DNA of 64,000 nucleotides, taken from contig OX393577.1 of assembly GCA_947652605.1 (NCBI GenBank), forward strand, positions 27,345,466-27,409,465. The letters run 5' to 3'. The notes under the pieces are model-generated. The model did no database searches. It was not told the origin of the DNA and saw nothing but the letters and a program-made list of their open reading frames with translations. The position numbers were made by a program, and so were the translations under genes. The DNA is from Elmis aenea (taxonomy: Eukaryota; Arthropoda; Insecta; Coleoptera; Elmidae). Below are positions 12,920 through 48,617 of this stretch, one piece after another (positions within the stretch are counted from its first letter, which is position 1; every line of letters starts with the position of its first letter).

Positions 12920-14262
12920 TTATTGAGGTGGATCGGTCCTCTCTCTCTGATTTTTAGAGTTCGTTGTTGATCCTGGCTGTCTCCGTCATTTTCTTCCATT
13001 CTTTCCTATCTTTGCATTTATTCACAATGCCTTTGTGTCGTCTTCCACGGCGTTTCTTTAGTAGGGTTTTGTTTTTGTCGTATGCCTGATTTCTTTTTAG
13101 CATTCTCTCCTTCACTCTGTTCTTTCCAGCTTGTTCCACTGTCACGCCCAAGTAATTGAAGATATATTGACCCCCTCGAAAGTATATTTTTGTATTTTTA
13201 GATCGTTCTTTGTGTGCATATTTTCTCTTCCTATCTTCATATAATTTAATTAATGTTAATTTATTTCCAGGCTCAGTTTTTTGCCTCATTGTCTAGTTGA
13301 TCTATAGCTCTTATTATGTCTATTATCTTCTATTTCCTATGATTGCTATATCGTCAGCATACGCTATTATTTATATTTGGTTGATCATAATGTTTTTCTT
13401 ATATGGTTTCGATCTTCGTAATACGCCTTTAAATATTAAATTAAATATGGTTGGCGATAGTGAGTCCCTTTGTTTTACACTTTTGTTTACTTTAAAAGAT
13501 TCCGTTGTTATTTCTTGGAATCTCACTTTTGCTGTTGTGTTATTTAGGGTTATTTCTAGCAGTGTTAGTCGATCCCAGGTATTTTCTAATAGTTCCAGTT
13601 TTCTTAGCGATTCTTTTCTGTTAACTGAATCAAATGCATTTTTAAAGTCTATAAAAGCTACATATTGTTCCCACTTTTTCTGGAGTATTTGTTCTAATGT
13701 GTGTATAGCATCCTATAGTGCAGTGGTCTCAAACTCAAATTGAATGCGGGCCGAATGCACAATCTAAACGTAGCTGACGGGCCGGATTTTTTTTTTTTTT
13801 AACAAAATGAGAGTGAATATACAAGCTATTGTCCTTCTTTATTTACAAAATTTTTCTTCGACATACAGAAAATAGACATGTTTGTATGTAAATAATTTAA
13901 TAATTATAAACTTCGTTATTTCTTACTACAACTAAATTTACTGATTGTACGGACGTAGGAAGTTCTCCCAAAATGTATTCGCGGGCCGCGTAAAATTGCT
14001 TTGGGGGCCGGATGTGGCCCGCGGGCCGCCAGTTTGAGACCACTGCAGTGGATCGACCCGATGTAAAGCCATTGTGGTAGTCTCCGAGTATTTTCTCAGC
14101 GTGCGTCTTTAGTCTCTTCTTTATCAACTTCGCGGTATTAACCAGAGCTATGGGTCTGTAGTTTTTACAGTTCTCGTTTCTTCCCTTATTGCGCAGTTGT
14201 ATGATTATACTGGTACCTATTTCAGTCCTTTGGCATCTTGTTTTGCATCCATATTTGCCTAA
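12920..14262 (-). mobile_element. LINE reverse-transcriptase fragment, broken
   Basis: On the minus strand, from about 14220 down, a frame carries the RT fingers region (NCKNYRPIALVNTAKLIKKR, then HAEKILGDYHNGFTSGRST). It is cut in the GRST motif by the MITE at 13721-14045. The other side resumes with DAIHTLEQILQKKWEQ, then the palm-A motif VAFIDFKNAFDSVNRKE, and further on the catalytic AYADDIAI box near 13335-13360. The 3' part (13289 to 12954) has the thumb-like YIFNYLGV motif and VKERMLKRNQAY, then jumps directly to a C-terminal KKRRGRRHKG...DRKEWKKM tail. That indicates an internal deletion. Frameshifts separate the blocks. It belongs to the insect RTE/L1-like endonuclease-RT class and is inactive. 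Confidence 0.9.
13721..14045. mobile_element. hAT-type MITE inside the LINE
   Basis: A 325-bp insertion with TIR cagtggtctcaaact at the left and its exact complement agtttgagaccactg at the right. The subterminal parts are G+C-rich (gcgggccg, ggcccgcgggccgcc) around an AT-rich middle. The left flank is ctatagtg; the right flank shares agtg, so an 8-bp TSD is only partly preserved. It interrupts the LINE RT between GRST and DAIHTL, which proves it is a later insertion. No coding capacity. Confidence 0.88.
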
Positions 14263-16102: not shown

Positions 16103-16918
16103 TAGGGTTTCTCATATTTGACAACTTTGCTTGTCCCGGGATTCCGGGATGAAAATGGTCTTTGTCCCGGGATCCCGGGATGTAATAAATTATGTCAATA
16201 TTTTTAAATAAATAACCCAAAAAAGGAAGGGAGCGGTTTATTACATAAAAACAACTCCGTCATATTATATGTGATAAAATTTTGCTCCATGATTATTATA
16301 AATAATAAAATAATATTGGTTAGAAAAGTATACATTTAAGAAATATCACAACTCTATTACAATTTCATTTTAATAAACACATAACATAATTTCTAATTTG
16401 AATTTTTCTAATATGATTAAAGAAAACAAGGGAATTCATGCTTCGATCATATAGTCTTATTTTTACTTTATTAACAGAAGTCCTGCTACATAAAATGCTT
16501 TCTTATTCTCTATCGCTGTACGTGGAATTCGCTTGAGAGCATATTGCAGCAAAGAGGCGTCGTTTTTATTAATAACATTTTATTTATAAGCTATTTTGCT
16601 TCGCATTGCCAGGGTACACAAAAATAGAACTATAAAACTATTTTGAAGATATAAACTATGTCATGGAGACCGGGCTTCTTTACGCCATACTACGGGTGTA
16701 CATAATTTGTTATTAAAAAACATAAACATTATTTTGAAAGTTTTTCCATATTTGAATGTTGGTAAATATATTGATTATAAAATCTGATAAGTTATGATAG
16801 TATTACAAACATCTTAGCACAAAATAAAGGAAAATAAAATTTTTAAAATATCCCGGGAATTCCCGGGACAAATATAAATTGGGTTAAAATGGACCGGGAT
16901 CCCTGAAGAGAAACCGTA
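16103..16918. mobile_element. hAT element with CCCGGG subterminal repeats (copy 1)
   Basis: The left end tagggtttctc pairs with the right end gagaaaccgta (10 of 11). The flanks agcagagc (16095-16102) and agtagagc (16919-16926) match at 7 of 8 positions, an hAT-size TSD. Just inside each end are palindromic CCCGGG motifs: tcccgggattccggga and tcccgggatcccggga on the left, tcccgggaattcccggga on the right. The middle is AT-rich with no transposase. It belongs with the elements at 26446-27579 and 31612-33873. Confidence 0.85.
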
Positions 16919-16926
16919 AGTAGAGC

Positions 16927-18287
16927 AATTAACGCGAGAGATCCCTTCTCGTCCCGACGCCCCGTTCGGTGCTTTTTAATTGGCAATACTTGCAGTATTG
17001 AAAATTAGGAGAATAAATAATATGTTATTTAAAAAAACTGCTTAAAAATTGGTCAAATAGTACCACTACAGTCGTGGTTTATAAGATTTTTATATTTTAT
17101 AAAACATACTGGATCTTACTCTTATTCAAAAATAATACCTCCAGTTATTCAATAGCAAACTTCCTTTTCATAGAAAATGTAATCTAAAACGTCTTGCTGC
17201 TTGCGTTTTTCGCAGACAGCTATAAATTGACTCGTATAAATAGATGACATTTTGTTTTGCATGCTCTTGTGTCATAAACACAGTCATCATCTAAAATCAA
17301 TAACGGTGTCTACTTCAGTGAAGTCGATAAGATCTCGAAAATTTCTTATCGTTATTTAAAACTTTAGCAATTGTTTATTCACCAACAGTCTTGGATATAA
17401 CGCACATTTTATGCTAAACAAATATATGTTCGAAGGCCTTTCGTGGAACAATCGGATTTTACGCCATGGCTATATCTGGCTTAAAAGAAAATCGATTCCA
17501 TGAAAATACGTCCTTAACTAAGAATCACATTTTATCGGTTCGTCTATATTTTGATATTTATTTTGTGTCTTGAGATTTCATTAAAACATACATTAAAAAT
17601 TTAAATATTAGTTTTAACGAATTACTACTTAAATATAACGGGTAGGTAATTTGTTACAGTAAAAACGAAAACGAATGTCTTTGAAATTCATCAATCAGTA
17701 AAATGTAAAGTTATTTAAAGCCTTTGAATTAAAAACTGGCTTCCAATTAAAGTTCTTGAATAGGTTTACATAGACACAAGATTTTAATTTCATTCAGATT
17801 ATTTCTCCATAAATCAATTAAAAACCTTTATTGGCAGTCGAAAGCGGTATTACCTTCTTTTTTGTCTTAGTAGTCCGATTTTTGCAAAAATAAGCTGTTC
17901 TTTTCTTCATGTTTGAAATAATATTGTAGCCCATATTTTGCTAAAACAATAATTTTGAGCAAAATACCTAACAGATAACAAAATGCGTTGTGAAACAAAT
18001 TTCTTAAAAAATGCATTATTATTGAGCACAGTATTTTTTTTTAAATAATGAATTCTAAATCTTATTACCTTTAAAAACTTAATAGGCATCTAACTTAATG
18101 CTAATATTATAATTCATGTTGTAGAAAAATCACAAACAATTGAATCTTTAATTGTAAAAACGTAACCACGGGGTCACCTCAATCTTTAACTATCTAACAA
18201 ACAAAAAACTACAATGTTTACTTAATCGATTTTTATAAGCGTATAATTATGTCTACTTGGTAATTTTAATTTTTAATAAATCAGCAG
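16927..18287. other. Non-coding stretch
   Basis: AT-rich sequence without recognisable genes, TIRs or long repeats. Around 16930-16980 is a short GC-richer patch (cccgacgccccgttcgg). Confidence 0.4.
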
Positions 18288-26437: not shown

Positions 26438-26445
26438 CTCGCGAA

Positions 26446-27579
26446 TAGGGATTGCAAGAGATCCTCAAAGTTTTGACGTTTAGTCCTTTAATAAGCGTTA
26501 TTATTTAATACTTGCAAATGAAAAAGCTGCAATTTGGAATAAAAATAAATTTCGAATAGTATTTTTTCCTAGATATTGTGTTCTTCCTTTCCAAAATTGG
26601 TGTTGAAAATATGTAAATCACTGATTTGAATGAAAATAATACATATGGCAACATTGTCATTAGCTGTCATCTCTGTTTTTCTCGTAATTATTTCTAGTTT
26701 GTGTTTTACGATGCCAAAAAGTTTGCAGCTATGTTTACGAACTGAAGGCTTTCAGTTCGAACAAAAATTGTTAATACCTAAGTAAAAATTGCTGATAAAA
26801 AAATGTCCAAACGCAAATCAATGTATGCAATGTTGTTAATTTTTTTTTCTTTAAATGGTTCCTGAGGCCATAGGAAGCATGGTACCTACAACATTTTTGT
26901 ATCAAGATTTTCGAGTTAGAATTTTACGAAGAACATCGTCACGTGTAGCGCTTCCGCCAATTTATACACACCCTGTATAATGTGAAATATTTGCTTAAAA
27001 ACAGAAGCTAATGCAGTGTATACATTTTTTTTAGAATTACATAATTATTGAATAATTTAGTACCTAATTACCATTTATTTTTATTAGCTTTTTATTTAAT
27101 TTGTTTCCTCTATAACTTCTGTTAATTTGTTTTAATTATATCATAGGTGTAAAGATGTTAACAATAATTTAAAAATATATATATATATACCTACCGTATT
27201 ATGTTTTATTATTATAGAAATAATCGAATTACTAGATATAACATTTGAATAAATGAAATATATTTGAATAAACTTATTATACATTAGAATCCATAATTAC
27301 ATAAACATAAATTTGCTGAAACTGCTGAAAACTCAAACAAAGCACCACTTTAATTCACTAAAAATTTAAAAAATAGACTGTTTTATAAGTAACAAAAATA
27401 AAAGAAAGAGTAAATACCAACTATGAGCAATTTTTTTACAAAATAATGTACTTGTAGTTAAATTTTTTAAATCCCGAAAATCCCGGGATTCTACATTTAA
27501 AATCCCGGTATTTTCGGGACGAAAAAGCGACCGGGATCCCGGGATCCCGGGATCCCGAATCCTGGGATTGCAATCCCTA
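26446..27579. mobile_element. hAT element with CCCGGG repeats (copy 2), carrying a MITE
   Basis: The termini tagggattgcaa and ttgcaatcccta are perfect 12-bp inverted repeats. The target site ctcgcgaa is duplicated exactly at 26438-26445 and 27580-27587, the 8-bp size of hAT. The right subterminal zone (27470-27560) holds a run of cccgggatcccgggatcc-type palindromes. The left subterminal CCCGGG zone is missing: 12 bp from the left end the sequence passes directly into a truncated copy of the 0.62-kb MITE family seen at 60 kb. No transposase. Confidence 0.9.
26455..26975 (+). mobile_element. 0.62-kb TA MITE, left end missing (copy C)
   Basis: From gatcctcaaagttttgacg to the right terminus gccaatttatacacaccctg this follows the copies at 60285-60909 and 60959-61581 almost base for base. 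Shared internal words include tgtccaaacgcaaatcaatg. The first roughly 110 bp of the family, including the left TIR, are absent, and the break coincides with tgcaagag beside the hAT terminus. TA follows at 26976. Confidence 0.88.
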
Positions 27580-27587
27580 CTCGCGAA

Positions 27588-28315: not shown

Positions 28316-28418
28316 AAAAATGAATGAATATAAATTACATGAAATATATTAATCAAAGTTCAGAAAGTAATATATTGTGACTGACCATCCTATCCTGTAC
28401 ATTGGCTGCACTTTTTGG

Positions 28419-28798
28419 CAGGGCTTCGAATCGGAACTGAACCCAAAACTGAAAACCGGAACTGAACCGGAAAAAAAATATCGGTTTATTACGGTTCGGT
28501 ACAGTTCAACAAACTCGCGCGTTTTGTTTACCTATATGTATATTGTATATGTTTCGTTTCATAAATTATATTATTATCATATGTTATATACTTCTATTTC
28601 CAATTATTATAACTTATTATTATACCAAATAAAAACATTTAAAAAATTAAAAAGCAATCACTCGGAGCTGAACCGAAAACCGAAAACCGAAAAAAACCTT
28701 TATTTTTTCCTGAACGAAAACCGGAACCGAACCGATATATTTTTTTAATTGAACCGGAACGAAAACCGAAACGAAAAAAATTACGGTTCGAAGCCCTG
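28419..28798. mobile_element. hAT MITE nested in the attcaccg element
   Basis: The TIRs are cagggcttcgaa and ttcgaagccctg. The target site ctttttgg is duplicated exactly at 28411-28418 and 28799-28806. The subterminal zones are runs of accggaactgaa / ttcggtt-type motifs. The ends and TSD are intact, so this is a young insertion in an older element. Reading frames across it are repeat-derived. Confidence 0.93.
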
Positions 28799-29314
28799 CT
28801 TTTTGGGGTTAAGTATTTTTTACTCAGATTTTTATTGTTTTTAAATATGGCTTTATAAGGTGGTTGGACACTCAAACGTTGTTTTACGTATAAATATCCA
28901 CAGGTCTCGAGCAATTATTACACAGTAAGAAACAAATAAAAGTTGTTGATAGACTTATCCCAAATACGGTACATACCTAGGTACTTGATAAAAGCAACTT
29001 TTCTGAATCGATTTTGGTTGTAATAGTTGCTTTTTTCGAATATTGTTACTTTTGTCAAACTAGGTGCACTATTTGAAAATAATTTGAATTAAAATTCGTT
29101 TATATTCAGATATTAAGAAAATATATTACTTTCTGATCTTTGATTAATATATTTTATGTAATTTATATCCATTTATTTTTCGACGATGCGGTGAATTGCG
29201 TATGCGGTGAATTGATATTCGGTGAATCTTCCTAGACCCTTCATTATGATTACTTTTTCTAAGAAATACATCTAAGTAACCTATTTTGCATGCGTATACA
29301 CTATTTAATACGGC

Positions 29315-31523: not shown

Positions 31524-31597
31524 TGTCTTTACTGGACTCGTATGCTTCTAGAACTCGCCTACGGCTCGTCTAAGAACTACCTACTCGTCCAGTAAAG
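31524..31597. repeat. Small inverted repeat (ctttactggac)
   Basis: tctttactggactcg and cgtccagtaaag enclose about 45 bp rich in ctcg, including ctcgcctacggctcg. It lies just outside the COX15-bearing hAT element. Probably a short MITE or terminal fragment. Confidence 0.55.
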
Positions 31598-31603
31598 TAC
31601 CAC

Positions 31604-31611
31604 TTCCCACT
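31604..31611. repeat. Target-site duplication of the COX15-bearing hAT
   Basis: ttcccact occurs here and again at 33874-33881, exactly abutting the two inverted termini. It defines the insertion as a single 2262-bp event. Confidence 0.9.
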
Positions 31612-32040
31612 TAGGGATTCTGTCCCGGGAATTTCCCGAGACGTAAGTCCCGGGAATTCCCGGGACTTTCTTAGTCTCGAGTCCCGGGACATTTAGTTCG
31701 AGACTCGAGACGAGACTAAATGTTACAGAACACTGAAATTAATTTTTTATACTTTTAATTTTTACAAATTTTACTGCCACGAGTTTAGCAAATACATTTT
31801 GTTTCATAATTTTTTATGTTTATAGATTATACTAACAATAAGTATTTACTTAGCTTTATTTAAATTTTTTGCCTGCCATATTTAATAATTTATGTTTATT
31901 TCTTGTCTGCTTTAAAGCTAAAGGATAATTTATTGTTAAGTTTATTAGTAAAAATATATTTTACTTATGCTTGTTATGTTTTAAAGTTTAATGAAAATTG
32001 TTAAATTTATTTAAAATAGGCATTAACTTGGAAATATATA

Positions 32041-32927
32041 GGGGAAGATGGTATATACTGGGACATGGTATATAGTGGGACAACAGAGATTTTGGCCATC
32101 TGTTACCCCGTACTTGAAGTTTGTTTACATCAAAATAGCGGTTAAGTAGTCCCATTATATCCTGTCTACAGTATGTGTCGTAAACAATGTCATAGTGACT
32201 TGCACATGTGAGGCATGTTTGGTAACTGCGCATTGTTTTTTTGTGGTTATTCAGTTTATGTGCTAAAACTTTTTAATTTATTTAACAACAATTAGAAAAT
32301 TTGGCGTAGGTGTACCTTACAGTATATTAAATGTATGTACAATGTTAAAACTTAAAATAATCATACAAGTTTTTCATTAAATCGTTGCTTTTAAAAATTG
32401 ATCACATGGTGCATTGTGGGACAATGATGATAATCAGGTAAATTTTCTGAAAAAGACTTCCGACTTTAGATTTTCTTTCTCTAAAAACAGAGATAAAGAC
32501 TGTGTTAAAAAAAAATACACAGAATATTTTCTTCGGTGCGACTACGTTTGGGGGCACTGAAAAAACAAAGAAACATTTTCAATTTTAGTTTGATTTTTCA
32601 AAGTACAATGTCTAAATGCCCATGAAAAGTGAAAGTTTTTAAAATAAAAAATTAAAATTAAGCTTTTTTTTAATTACTTATGCTTTATCAAATTTTTTTT
32701 TTGCTGTCCCACAATGTACCACGGGGTGGTGTATGTGGGGACAAGTGGTGTATAGTGGGACAGTCCCTCTATTTGTGTACCTTTATTTTTAAAAAATATT
32801 TTTTTGTATATGCAATGATAAACTAAAGCAATATGAATATCTCATATCAATTTGAGGTATGCAAATTAAGCCGTTCAAAAGTTACGCAAAATTTAAAAAA
32901 AGTGTCCCAGTATATACCACCTTCCCC
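32041..32927. mobile_element. TA-flanked TIR element with ggtatatagtgggaca words
   Basis: The ends are ggggaagatggtatatactg and the complement of ggggaaggtggtatatactg, with TA on each side (32039-32040 and 32928-32929). The subterminal word ggtatata(c/g)tgggaca occurs twice in tandem at the left (32049 and 32065). Variants lie near 32726 and 32744 (ggtgtatgtggggaca and ggtgtatagtgggaca), with inverted forms near 32149, 32704 and 32903. The architecture parallels the element at 18290-19348: a GGGGA start, TA site and reiterated terminal word. It lies inside the hAT at 31612-33873 and directly abuts the truncated 3' side of the COX15 fragment. No transposase. Confidence 0.88.
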
Positions 32928-32947
32928 TACTTTATTTACTGTAGAAT

Positions 32948-33418
32948 GTGCCATATCCATTTAAACTCGGATAAAGTGATGTCTTTATTTTTTATTTGGA
33001 ATTCTGGATATTCTTTATATTTTTCAAATTCTCTCAGCCATTGTTTTTCTGTTCGAGGCATTTGTTCTCCGAATAATTTCCATGTAACCATTGATAACCC
33101 TGATTCTGTCAGTCTTGTGACACCACCTAAAACCACCGCTACAAACACCATTCCACTTCATGATAGAAGCCAATAACCCACAGCCTTTTTTGCTGTTGTA
33201 GAAACTTCTGATGTAAGTTCAAGAGCCACGGTTCCACTACGTCGTAACAAATTTGATAGCTTAAAGTTTTTTATTAATTGCCCTTTGTTGTTTAAGTTAT
33301 AAAAAAGTTTGCGTTGTGAACCATTTTTAAAAATCGGCTGTATTATTTTATTTCCAAGTAATTGCTTTGAGTAAGGTAATAGCAGTCTCGAAGAACATTG
33401 TCGAGCAATACTTAACAT
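32948..33418 (-). pseudogene. COX15: COX15 (heme A synthase) 5' fragment, captured
   Basis: About 157 codons on the minus strand match the N-terminal part of COX15, the inner-mitochondrial-membrane enzyme that converts heme O to heme A for cytochrome c oxidase. Residues 1-70 (MLSIARQCSSRLLLPYSKQL and on) are basic and serine-rich, as expected of a mitochondrial targeting sequence. Then come AKKAVGYWLLS, a TGA codon (33158-33160) where the family usually has Cys, and in the same frame SGMVFVAVVLGGVTRLTESG. The family signature GGVTRLTESGLSM lies in the first membrane helix. Next are FEKYKEYPEF and ITLSEFKWIWH. Homology stops there, before the EYxHR heme-ligand region, and 19 bp short of a MITE. 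There is no intron in the part present. With one in-frame stop and no frameshift, decay is recent or limited. It is a pseudogene fragment inside a transposon. The functional parent gene should lie elsewhere. Confidence 0.9.
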
Positions 33419-33780
33419 TGTTATAATTACTTAAAAATCTCCCTACTCATGTTATCTTAATTAAAAATAATAATACTACTACACTTTATAAAATAAATGC
33501 TTCAAAAACAAAATCCGTGAATTTGGTTTAATTTAAAAAAAAAAAACTGTCAACTGTCACGACCGATTCACGATCACGATACGTGCAAAGAAGCAATTTT
33601 AAATATGTAGCGGGTGCTTTCAGAAACAATGTCACTGTCAAGAAAACTTATTTTTTACAGTGAAAATAGCCGATGAATTTTGAGTACATGAATATATCAG
33701 CATTTTTCTTGCACCATATAAAATCTTCCGTCATTTTTGACGGGTTATACCACCATTTTCTAGTATGTAAATAAAATTCG
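33419..33780 (-). promoter_or_regulatory. Possible captured upstream region of COX15
   Basis: This non-repetitive sequence lies between the COX15 start codon and the hAT subterminal repeats. It includes the near-dyad aactgtcaactgtcac and GC-richer gaccgattcacgatcacgat (about 33545-33580). It is plausibly 5' UTR and promoter DNA taken along with the coding part, but comparison with the parental locus is needed to show this. Confidence 0.4.
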
Positions 33781-33910
33781 CAAAAGTCTCGAAGTCCCGG
33801 GAATTCCCGGGACTTTGATAAAAAAAGTCTCGAGTCCCGGGACTTCGAAAATTGTCGAGACTCAGAATCCCTATTCCCACTGTTGTCACATAAATAACTA
33901 CTAGGTACAA

Positions 33911-34290
33911 ATGTAATTTTTGCGATCGCGTTGGCCATGAAACCGTCAAAGACAAAATTAAAATTTTTCTATTTACCAATGAGTGCATCCTTTTCAAGTA
34001 AAATGGTGCAAAGTTTTCCGGAGAAAAAGGTCAAAAACGAAACCCCTGCAAAAGTGCTATGATTTGAGAAGTTGTAGTATATCTGTATAACTATGTCTAT
34101 GGGACTTGCATAGGCGTTTAACATAGGGAAAACTGTTTTTACAAAGGCCTCGTTTTTCGAGTTTTTCCCGTTTAAGATTTTTTTAAAACTTTACACCATT
34201 TTACTTGCAAAGGAGGCGCGTATTGGTAAATGGAAAAATTTAAATTTTGTCTTTGACGGTTTCATGGCCAACGCGATCGCAAAAATTACT
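33911..34290. repeat. Fold-back repeat, about 110-bp arms
   Basis: The left arm taatttttgcgatcgcgttg followed by gccatgaaaccgtcaaagac is mirrored at the right by gacggtttcatggccaacgc and gatcgcaaaaatta. The inner parts (tcaagtaaaatggtgcaaag / ctttacaccattttacttgc) pair too. The middle holds gaaaaaggtcaaaaacg-type sequence with partial complementarity. The short frames seen at both ends (both starting MANAIAKITF) are the same arm read from either strand. Confidence 0.85.
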
Positions 34291-34634
34291 TTTATTATTC
34301 AACTTTTCAGTTTTTCCCCTATTTTTTCGAAGAAAATGGCCAGTGGCACGTATAAATCTGCAAAACATTCAGTTTTGATATTCTTGATGCATAAACACAG
34401 CCTTCATAGGCGCCGACTACACGGGGGCAACGGGGCTCGTGCTCACGTGCCGATTAAACTAGGGGGGCATTGCCCCCATGCGATGCGACATCGCAAAGGC
34501 TAACTTATGCAATTCACATTTAAATTATGCCAAACAGCACATATCACGTTCGAGTTCGAGTACAACTTTATTTAGTGCCATACTTTTTTTCGTCCATTCT
34601 GAGACTATGTACTAATAATACCTATCGTGTAGGT

Positions 34635-34947
34635 CAGGGATGGCAAATAGGTGGTACGCGTGCCAAAGTTGAGAGATTTTCGACGGCACCCTAAAGAATT
34701 GTATGAATAAATTTGTTTTTAAATTAGTACGCTAAGTATCTTTTTTTCTGTGTTGAAAAAGTCACCAGCGGTCTAACCTAACTAGTTTTGGAGAAAAGTC
34801 ACCAGCGGTCTAACCTAACTAGTTTTGGAAAAGTCACCAGCGGTCTAACCTAACTAGTTTTGAAAAAGTCACCAGCGGTCTTTGGAAAAGTTACCAGCGG
34901 GAAAAATTTGTATCAAATTTTATGTTATTTTGGCACACACATCCCCA
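34635..34947. mobile_element. hAT MITE (inner), with tandem repeat
   Basis: The left end cagggatggcaaa and right end acacacatcccca are imperfect inverted repeats. The target site gtgtaggt is duplicated exactly at 34627-34634 and 34948-34955. Further in, cgtgccaaag on the left pairs with ttttggcac on the right. About half of the element is a tandem repeat (34755-34910). Confidence 0.9.
34755..34910 (+). repeat. Tandem repeat, about 35-bp units
   Basis: Three near-identical units of the form gaaaagtcaccagcggtcta followed by acctaactagttttg, then two shortened units (gtcaccagcggtctttgg and gttaccagcgggaaaa). Units differ mainly in the length of the A run, so the expansion is recent. Confidence 0.9.
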
Positions 34948-35092
34948 GTGTAGGTACTTGTTACACTCGTGCATCGTACATTTATCCCCTGCCACCCTAG
35001 CGAGTTTAGAAAGTCGGCGCCTATGACAGCCTTAATCAAATTCTAGCGACAACGTATCGTGACCTTCCCTGGTGAATCTAAGCAGGGGTTCC

Positions 35093-39490: not shown

Positions 39491-41380
39491 TCGATTACGG
39501 TATTTTTTTTACATTGTGATGCGTCACAAATCGGGCTTAACATTTTTAATGTTCATTTGTTTTTTTAAATTAATACAAAACTTTATATGGATGTCATATT
39601 GTAATATGTCGTCGTTACATTGAATTTTTTATTACATTTTTAAGGATTTGAAACACTCTAGAATACATAATATAAGAAAATTGCAATTAAATGCTATAAA
39701 ACAAATAAAAGTAATAAAAAACGTTTGTGACATTTGTTTTTAACGCATTAAATGTAGTCATAATTAAATAGTGTCGGTAAAAAACTACCAGTAGTTATTG
39801 TTCGTTGTGAAGAAACAAATGAGGATACAAAATTTAAAAAAAAAACACCCTTTTTAACATCCGACGATCTGGAAAAGGAGCCCTGAGCTTAATTTTAGTT
39901 ATACGAGTATATTGGACTCCAAAATGCGCGACTTATCTCTAATTTAACCGACTTCGTATCTTTTAATAACCGAGATGCTCATGTAGTTCATTCTTATCCC
40001 AGAGTGTTTGTAACTATTGTTCCATTTTGATTTCTTGCACACCACAATAGGTAATGTCTAATCTTATTTTACAGTTAGTGATACTCAGGATTAACTCAGT
40101 CTTTTAAAGACTGACTGTTGTTAAACTTGATTATCCCCAGAATTAGTAAAATTCTCTCAACAAAGCAACATTCAGCTCCACGATTATACGTATACTACTA
40201 CATTTAGTCAGTCCATCTAATTTCAACTCAATTACAACAATCTAGGGATTGTTGCCGGGATTCTGCATTATATGTTTGCAAGAATACATTTCACTGAACA
40301 ATACTACGCCTGCATTCCCGCCATTCTAGTTCGGCACTTGCATATATCACTAGGTATTACATTACATAACCGCGTTTCGCTGCCTGTCACACGCCAGTGC
40401 ATGAATTCAGAGATTTCAATTGATATTTTGCTGCTGTCTCTGACGCCTTTCTACGCAAGAAAAAAAAAGACTAATGATCTTGCTCAGAGGAAAATGGCAA
40501 ACAATTCGAAATACAAAGCGAGTTCGTTTTTCTGTATATTAGTTGTGTGTAGAAGAGATTCATCACTTCGTTTTAAAACATTAAAAGTATATATTATAAA
40601 GTATGAAACTGGATTCCGAAATGTCAAACAATATACTGCGGCGTTGGTAATATTATTTACGCAGATACAAGTAATGTTAAATGTTCAAGCTATAAATTAT
40701 TTTATGCTGTTTTTGGCATTTTTGCACCATTTTGTAGGGAAAATAATTTTTTTATCTGAACATTTTCAAGTTTTTCCATTGTTTAATTAATAATAATGCT
40801 TTCCTCATCACCAACCCTTGTTGCTTATATTAGTTTAATAAAGTATTATACCAAATTCATTGAAAAAACCGGACTAACTTTACAATAATTTTAAAACAAT
40901 TGTTTTATGATTCTGTTCTACTTATTAAATATAATTAAGAAAACCTTACAAACGATGTGTACGAAATGTGAAAATTTAAATAAACAATTTGCACTAGAAT
41001 CCGTGATTTTTATATTCCCACCGGTTGCATCCCTGCCAAAGTGGTAAATTTCTTGTATATTTCATGACTCACTCAAGGTCCACGTCTACTCTTGAGTTTT
41101 GGAATTGCCAATGCACACTGCGATGATGAAATTTTCATGAGTGTTCATCTGGATCTTTACAACATGCATGAAGTCTTAATTTGTCGCTTCGGGATATGTC
41201 CAACAGACAACTCATGTAAATTGATGCGGTGCATCAAACAATGACTGGTAAGGACATAAAAATCAATATGTTTAAACTGTTAGAGTCAATTTTATTTATC
41301 ATATTTTAAAAGAGATATTAGGGGTCGTATAGTTTTCACTAAAATATTATAAAAATTCGTATGAACATCTGCAAATAAAA
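39491..41380. other. Non-coding stretch
   Basis: No genes recognised. The longest uninterrupted frame of the window (40272-40790, plus strand, 172 codons) lies here. Its translation has low-complexity hydrophobic runs and no family likeness. The part at about 40280-40460 is less AT-rich and could be a regulatory island. Confidence 0.35.
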
Positions 41381-47853: not shown

Positions 47854-47861
47854 GTTTACAT

Positions 47862-48609
47862 TAGAGTCCTGCAGTCGGGTCGGGACCCGCTGGTACCCGC
47901 GGGTTACCCGCAAAGCGGGTCGGGTTGCGGGTCTTTAAATAATGAAGTTTGCGGGTAGCGGGTCGGGTATCGGTCATTCGTACACAATAAAGTGGGTATT
48001 CGTTCTGATACTATTTTTTTAATAAAATGGTACAGATCAAGTGAAGCGAGTTTTTTATGGAATTTATTACTATTTTTAAATATGAATGAACTGTATAATA
48101 TTATCGCCTGCTTATTATAATTATTACACTGTTTAAAACAACAAATATATAATTTGGAAAACAAATATGATTAAAAATGTATACGAAGCAATTTTTATGT
48201 ATTTACACGAATACTATCGTACAAACGCACAATGAACAATACAAATACGAAATACTTTGTAAGCAAGTCGAACATGCTGTTTCGCATTTAACTCATTAAA
48301 GCCTTCCACACACAATCTAACGCGCGATTCAGCAAGATTGAACCGATTTGGACGGCAGACAAACAAGTCTGCGAGTCGGGTGAAAGTCAAACAAATTACA
48401 ATAAAGCGGGTAGCGGGTCGGGTACGGGTAGCGGGTCGGGTGCGGGTAGCGGGTCGGGTGCGGGTCTAATAACTTAGAATTATGCGGGTAGCGGGTCGGG
48501 TGCGGGTCTATTAAACCAGAATCGTGCGGGTCGCGGGTCGGGTGCGGTATCAACATCAGCTTTGCGGGTCGGGTGCGGGTCCGAAAAATTGGACCCGCGC
48601 AGGACTCTA
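47862..48609. mobile_element. hAT element with GCGGGT tandem repeats
   Basis: The TIRs are tagagtcctgc and gcaggactcta, followed inside by cgggtcggg / ggacccgc. The target site gtttacat is duplicated exactly at 47854-47861 and 48610-48617. Both subterminal zones consist of gcgggt / gcgggtcgggt words, more extended on the right (48408-48590). The centre is AT-rich with no transposase. The frame of repeated HPTRYP residues on the minus strand (48329-48556) is the tandem repeat translated. Confidence 0.93.
48408..48590. repeat. Tandem repeat of gcgggtagcgggtcgggt
   Basis: Repeated 18-bp units (gcgggtagcgggtcgggt) occur here, with two AT-containing spacers (ctaataacttagaattat and ctattaaaccagaatcgt). 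Shorter inverted versions lie near the left end (47878-47970). Probably the reiterated subterminal binding zone of the hAT element. Confidence 0.85.
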
Positions 48610-48617
48610 GTTTACAT

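Follow-up and report, generated by a model that had tools for sequence, protein, structure and literature searches.

The window, by which we mean the whole 64,000-nucleotide stretch of DNA that was analysed, contains a hAT-like unit of 2262 bp (31612-33873) that encloses the 5' part of a COX15 gene and a second, nested element. The features recognised in and immediately beside the unit were as follows.

31604-31611: left target site duplication (TSD), TTCCCACT, read directly and identical to the right copy
31612-31622, + strand: left terminal inverted repeat (TIR), TAGGGATTCTG, complementary to the right end at 11/11 positions
31612-31710, + strand: left hAT-like end with CCCGGG/TCTCGA motifs, about 99 bp, the inner edge being approximate and set by the last motif
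31711-32038: stretch of 328 bp without a Pfam match and without a COX15 match
32041-32927: nested TIR element of 887 bp, with 25-bp TIRs (GGGGAAGATGG..) matching at 24/25 positions and TA at 32039-32040 and 32928-32929
32946-33418, - strand: COX15 fragment from the start codon to codon 157 (..EFKWIWH) plus two bases, with a putative presequence and the first membrane helix (from PF02628, tblastn and alignment)
33158-33160, - strand: in-frame TGA at codon 87, a position occupied by Cys in the aligned beetle proteins except one, which has Ser
33419-33783, - strand: 365 bp lying 5' of the COX15 start codon, by position either 5'UTR, perhaps together with promoter, or DNA of another kind
33784-33873, + strand: right hAT-like end with CCCGGG/TCTCGA motifs and the TIR, about 90 bp, the inner edge being approximate
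33863-33873: right TIR, complement of TAGGGATTCTG, 11/11 match
33874-33881: right TSD, TTCCCACT, 8 bp, identical to the left copy

An earlier note on this DNA had reported perfect 11-bp termini and a perfect 8-bp TSD around these 2262 bp, and on re-reading both were found to be identical on the two sides. Beyond 11 bp, the complementarity between the two ends of the unit was 14/20 and then 16/30. A 24-bp palindrome that contains CCCGGG, AAGTCCCGGGAATTCCCGGGACTT, was present in identical form near both ends (31645-31668 and 33792-33815), and more TCTCGA/CCCGGG motifs were located within each. This subterminal layout of palindromes and motifs is usual for hAT ends. No transposase domain was detected in the unit by Pfam searches of all six frames at E<=0.1, hence the hAT label depends on the termini and the TSD. 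hAT elements are defined by an 8-bp TSD and TIRs of 10-25 bp (PMC3942097); the unit has the 8-bp TSD TTCCCACT on both sides and perfect TIRs of 11 bp.

A scan for perfect 11-bp TIRs flanked by a perfect 8-bp TSD, over spans of 100-5000 bp, returned 10 pairs in the window, whereas 100 first-order Markov windows gave 0. Five of the ten pairs were set aside, four for a palindromic TSD and one for a poly-A terminus, and those retained were the 31612-33873 unit and the pairs at 26446-27579, 28419-28798, 34405-35025 and 47862-48609. The sequence TAGGGATTCTG was encountered 20 times in the window when up to two mismatches were permitted, relative to an expectation of 9.43, and none of 100 shuffles reached 20; exact matches were confined to the two ends of the unit. 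No second copy of the unit was found within the 64-kb window, and the hAT end pattern returned 0 stretches in viral contigs.

The nested element ends 16 bp from the break in COX15 and went unmentioned in the earlier note. Neither a Pfam match nor a transposase domain was detected in 32041-32927, so its superfamily depends on the TA duplication and the TIRs, by which it is classed as a separate Tc1/mariner-like insertion. When this element and one TA are subtracted, the unit comprises 1373 bp, of which the hAT-like ends account for approximately 189 bp, COX15 coding sequence for 473 bp and upstream sequence for 365 bp, while about 345 bp match no named part. The hAT capture proposed in the earlier note thus stands as far as a 5' piece of COX15 within a transposase-less hAT-like unit is concerned, but the 2.26 kb cannot be kept as one piece, given that 887 bp of it are a separate TA-flanked insertion.

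The identity of the COX15 piece was established with several types of search. PF02628 matched it with E=4.8e-21 and was the sole Pfam match at E<=0.1 in the six frames of the unit, whilst tblastn of COX15 proteins (the best 120 of 1248) against the window gave a best E-value of 2e-57 at 33418-32945. A protein search with the piece retrieved 1248 proteins at E<=1e-5; all ten named proteins in the first 12 of the best 120 of these were from beetles, headed by Nicrophorus vespilloides at 62% identity. Solved structures yielded 0 matches to the fragment at E<=0.001. Searches for COX15 relatives in genome contigs via the protein P0001 produced 42 pattern matches, and those in viral contigs via the alignment 41, of which 0 were confirmed in either case. 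The first 79 residues of the fragment carry 14 K/R and 2 D/E, and mitochondrial targeting of the piece was judged by homology and charge only. PF02628 and tblastn together bore out the COX15 targeting sequence and first membrane helix that had been read on the minus strand from the letters alone. The piece had also been described as intronless and open apart from one TGA, and its coding part was indeed continuous over 33418-32946 with a single TGA at 33160-33158.

The upstream stretch, 33419-33783, may possibly represent the COX15 promoter. A run of 12 A residues was observed on the + strand (33535-33546) inside this stretch.

The capture reading would have fallen, according to the earlier note, had COX15 sequence continued past the unit; this was examined by tblastn within the window and no such continuation was found. 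The best match outside the unit, obtained with the same best 120 of 1248 proteins, had E=0.016 and lay at 40134-40439 on the opposite strand. By these searches the 64-kb window contains no other convincing COX15 match, and a parent gene is absent from the 30 kb on either side.

The age of the copy was gauged from positions that do not vary amongst beetles. For this purpose 15 full-length beetle proteins were chosen by hand from the listed matches (P0121 was left out, as it ends early), and all 41 columns that were invariant in them were retained by the window copy (41/41). These columns amount to 97 non-synonymous site equivalents, and 0 changes in them cap neutral divergence at 0.031 substitutions per site (upper 95% limit). 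The TGA was counted separately, its column being one that varies (Ser for Cys in one beetle); as 1 event in 34 stop-site equivalents, it gives a rate near the 0.031 limit. In a tree of 47 rows, consisting of the window copy and 46 comparison proteins chosen by hand from the listed matches, the end branch of the window copy was 0.26 long, that of Nicrophorus was 0.27, and Nicrophorus was the nearest sequence by path (0.52). No well-supported clade in this tree contained the window copy. The host is probably a beetle, judging by this tree and by the closest of the named proteins. With all 41 invariant residues intact the copy appears to be young, and the COX15 piece resembles a normal gene that was copied only recently.

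To locate introns, COX15 proteins of other species that end early were utilised, the early end probably marking the point at which a gene caller had met an intron. In a first set of short proteins, 37 of 119 lost their alignment at positions 139-141 of P0001 (PEFK|), among the matches listed, and P0040, the 120th protein of this set, had no stop at the PEFK site. The named proteins of the first set that stopped there were from Gonioctena (P0121, a beetle), Culex pipiens, Euphydryas editha and Diaphorina citri. The short-protein sets were picked by a length filter and represent, among the matches listed, 120 of 271 and 120 of 164. In the combined set, 109 of 206 short COX15 proteins lost alignment at positions 139-142 of P0001, among the matches listed, a figure that is to be read with the fact that the query for the second set ends exactly at the PEFK site and favours proteins stopping there; another 92 of the 206, also among the matches listed, aligned to position 150 or further. 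The last aligned residue was M or L at position 141 in 83 of the 109, as would be expected from AT|GTAA or CT|GTAA, and whereas 74 of the 109 terminated outright, 35 continued as unrelated residues. P0299 and P0301, which match Sitophilus at 100% identity along 46 residues, likewise stopped at the PEFK site. Homology in these two starts only at LGGVTRL, which could be a further intron site. It had also been considered that the piece was an exon followed by the start of an intron, based on a human COX15 intron placed after WIWH, at the 3' break of the piece, and this was dropped when the early-ending proteins placed the conserved intron at PEFK.

A second intron site is indicated at window codon 53/54. 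The Dendroctonus proteins P0050 and P0037 were identical over 360 residues and differed before this point, and the homology of the beetle-like P0041 began at the same point, after ..ILQ; errors of annotation or assembly could also account for the fronts of P0050 and P0041. At codon 53/54 and at PEFK alike, the window copy runs on without interruption. However, P0041 runs on through the PEFK site, and since this protein passes it, as do 92 of the 206 short ones, an intron at PEFK is not universal and the lean towards an RNA template is weak. On this comparison of proteins, the odds that the source was a spliced COX15 template (cDNA or an existing retrocopy) would be slightly better than even, and those of a host gene without the two introns slightly worse.

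Considered together, these observations argue that the unit is a transposase-less, hAT-like transposon with a recently acquired 5' copy of the host's own COX15, a reading to which we assign a probability of roughly 0.8. A break within the hAT element would have been repaired by copying COX15 sequence in, after which a hAT transposase from another source may have carried the composite to its present site; alternatively, COX15 may have been captured where the unit now stands. The TA-flanked element would have inserted into the unit either before or after the capture of COX15. Since no COX15 parent lies within 15 kb of the unit, movement after capture, or else a distant template, is mildly favoured. 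Any product of the piece would be restricted by the TGA to a presequence peptide of 86 residues, and the piece is most likely a non-functional passenger.

A plain DNA-level Pack-TIR, in which only DNA was involved, is the other variant of this reading and a serious contender whose chances fall somewhat short of even. It would require that no intron interrupts the first 157 codons of the host COX15, and that upstream and coding DNA were taken up together by gap repair. The 365 bp before the start codon resemble genomic upstream DNA rather than 5'UTR, and their length, which seems long for a 5'UTR, favours either capture at the DNA level or a retrocopy that brought flanking DNA along. DNA-level hAT capture is moreover the documented route, the survey of animal genomes having kept only captures that did not resemble retroduplicates (PMC8277862). 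The beetle-like P0041, which is without the PEFK intron, is consistent with such a host gene; against this, the host gene would have to be without two intron sites for which there is some beetle evidence. The branch in which the piece was copied from spliced RNA (cDNA) straight into a broken hAT element, bypassing a LINE-type retrocopy, we regard as unlikely.

Insertion of a processed COX15 pseudogene into an existing hAT element by LINE-type machinery would amount to two nested insertions with no capture at all, and appears improbable. The copy is free of introns, a reverse transcriptase fragment above the Pfam cut-off occurs in the window at 13374-13712, and a 7-bp repeat, ACTTTAT, lies on both sides of the COX15 piece (32929 and 33483), all of which such an insertion would accommodate. 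However, the 5' end of COX15 was kept and the 3' end lost. Truncation of the usual LINE type is the opposite, with the 5' end being lost. On its 3' side the COX15 piece shows no poly(A), and 32928-32950 shares no direct repeat of >=8 bp with 33419-33790; together these results argue against a plain LINE-type insertion. A wider repeat scan of 32895-32960 and 31990-32045 against 33420-33800 produced one 9-bp match, within the end of the nested element, and one of 8 bp, ATTTAAAA. The hallmarks of a LINE-type pseudogene, poly(A) and a flanking duplication, are thus absent from the copy, and part-capture of an older retrocopy would also lack both. That the locus is the host's real COX15 gene, its first part lying between hAT-like ends by chance, would agree with the 41/41 intact beetle-invariant residues but is very improbable in view of the in-frame TGA at codon 87 and the lack of any further exon in the 31.6 kb of window past the left end of the unit (tblastn, best 120 of 1248 proteins).

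A Pack-TIR holds host sequence that is not of transposable element origin between the ends of one TIR element, as the COX15 piece is held within 31612-33873, and on this arrangement of sequence the unit is a Pack-TIR-like element. The definition of a Pack-TIR also takes in a known parental copy at another genomic location that is unlinked to the transposable element. In a survey of animal genomes, 370 Pack-TIRs were reported in 55 of 100 animals, with hAT being the commonest superfamily (208/370), and one hAT case was found to hold part of the CAPSL 5'UTR (Tan et al. 2021, PMC8277862). The likeness to the present unit lies in a TIR element that encloses a piece of a host gene, whilst the captured sequence, at a median of 224 bp in the survey, is at least 473 bp here (PMC8277862). 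Of the unique cases in the survey, 160 of 281 (56.9%) lay <=15 kb from the parent, gap filling tending to copy nearby sequence, whereas no parent is present within 30 kb of the COX15 unit; two models have been put forward for animal captures, one in which a gap is filled in place and one in which fork switching precedes transposition (PMC8277862).

The same survey describes Ssk-FB4 from Drosophila melanogaster populations, an insect TIR element that, in likeness to the COX15 unit, contains the larger part of a host gene, without its 3' end, together with DNA from upstream of it (PMC8277862). It differs in being transcribed, present in several copies and MULE-like with TIRs of ~700 bp, relative to the 11-bp TIRs and one copy in the 64-kb window seen here (PMC8277862). 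Plant Pack-MULE and Pack-TYPE elements also carry a gene fragment between transposon ends, and are likened to the unit by description only (PMC8903248). In the openly accessible literature, judged by titles and the openings of abstracts, no hAT gene capture from an insect was found. Plants and animals other than insects are known to have similar captures, and reports from insects seem to be fewer. MER20, a hAT element, supplies a further comparison. The human ARF6 retrogene lies inside MER20, a retrogene copy within a TIR element, for which the survey authors considered that recurrent retroposition could be the explanation; this retrogene is nearly complete, whereas the COX15 unit holds a 5' part only (PMC8277862).

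The survey of 100 animal genomes records no Pack-TIR in insect reference genomes (PMC8277862). The COX15 unit, by contrast, offers a hAT-like capture from a probable beetle that appears young, has clear boundaries and involves a host gene that can be named. Intronless copies of multi-exon parents were thrown out of the survey, a filter that could have removed a case like the COX15 unit (PMC8277862). Should the template have been RNA, the unit would hint at a class of captures hidden by this filter, and at a route by which DNA transposons could mobilise intron-free mitochondrial presequences.

Several other elements were observed in the window. Of the window's 182 stop-to-stop ORFs of >=60 aa, 10 were searched with Pfam; one match exceeded its cut-off, and four others were weaker and fell short of theirs. 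The former was a reverse transcriptase on the minus strand (RVT_1, 13374-13712, E=9.5e-09), with a second RVT_1 segment at 13900-14262 below the cut-off (E=0.0079). Rfam at gathering scores and a tRNA scan each returned 0 matches in the window. A 19-bp exact match to the subterminal palindrome of the unit was present at 16851-16869, with no TAGGGATTCTG end within 16780-16960. Just left of the insertion site, a 16-bp inverted repeat at 31527-31597 is possibly the end of another element, and a long imperfect palindrome of fold-back type (33922-34280) starts 40 bp right of the TSD of the unit.

The retained TIR/TSD pairs other than the COX15 unit correspond to four further elements. That at 26438-27587 (pair 26446-27579; TIR TAGGGATTGCA, TSD CTCGCGAA) has a right end rich in CCCGGG and is possibly a distant relative of the COX15 unit; matches between its body and the unit were short and at chance level only. 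A TIR element with CATAGGCGCCG termini and the 8-bp TSD ACAGCCTT extends over 34397-35033 and contains a 35-bp tandem array (34753-34881). Two hAT-like elements were also recorded, one at 28411-28806 (TIR CAGGGCTTCGA, TSD CTTTTTGG) and one at 47854-48617 (TIR TAGAGTCCTGC, TSD GTTTACAT), the latter of which carries tandem arrays of the GCGGGT type at 48406-48547.
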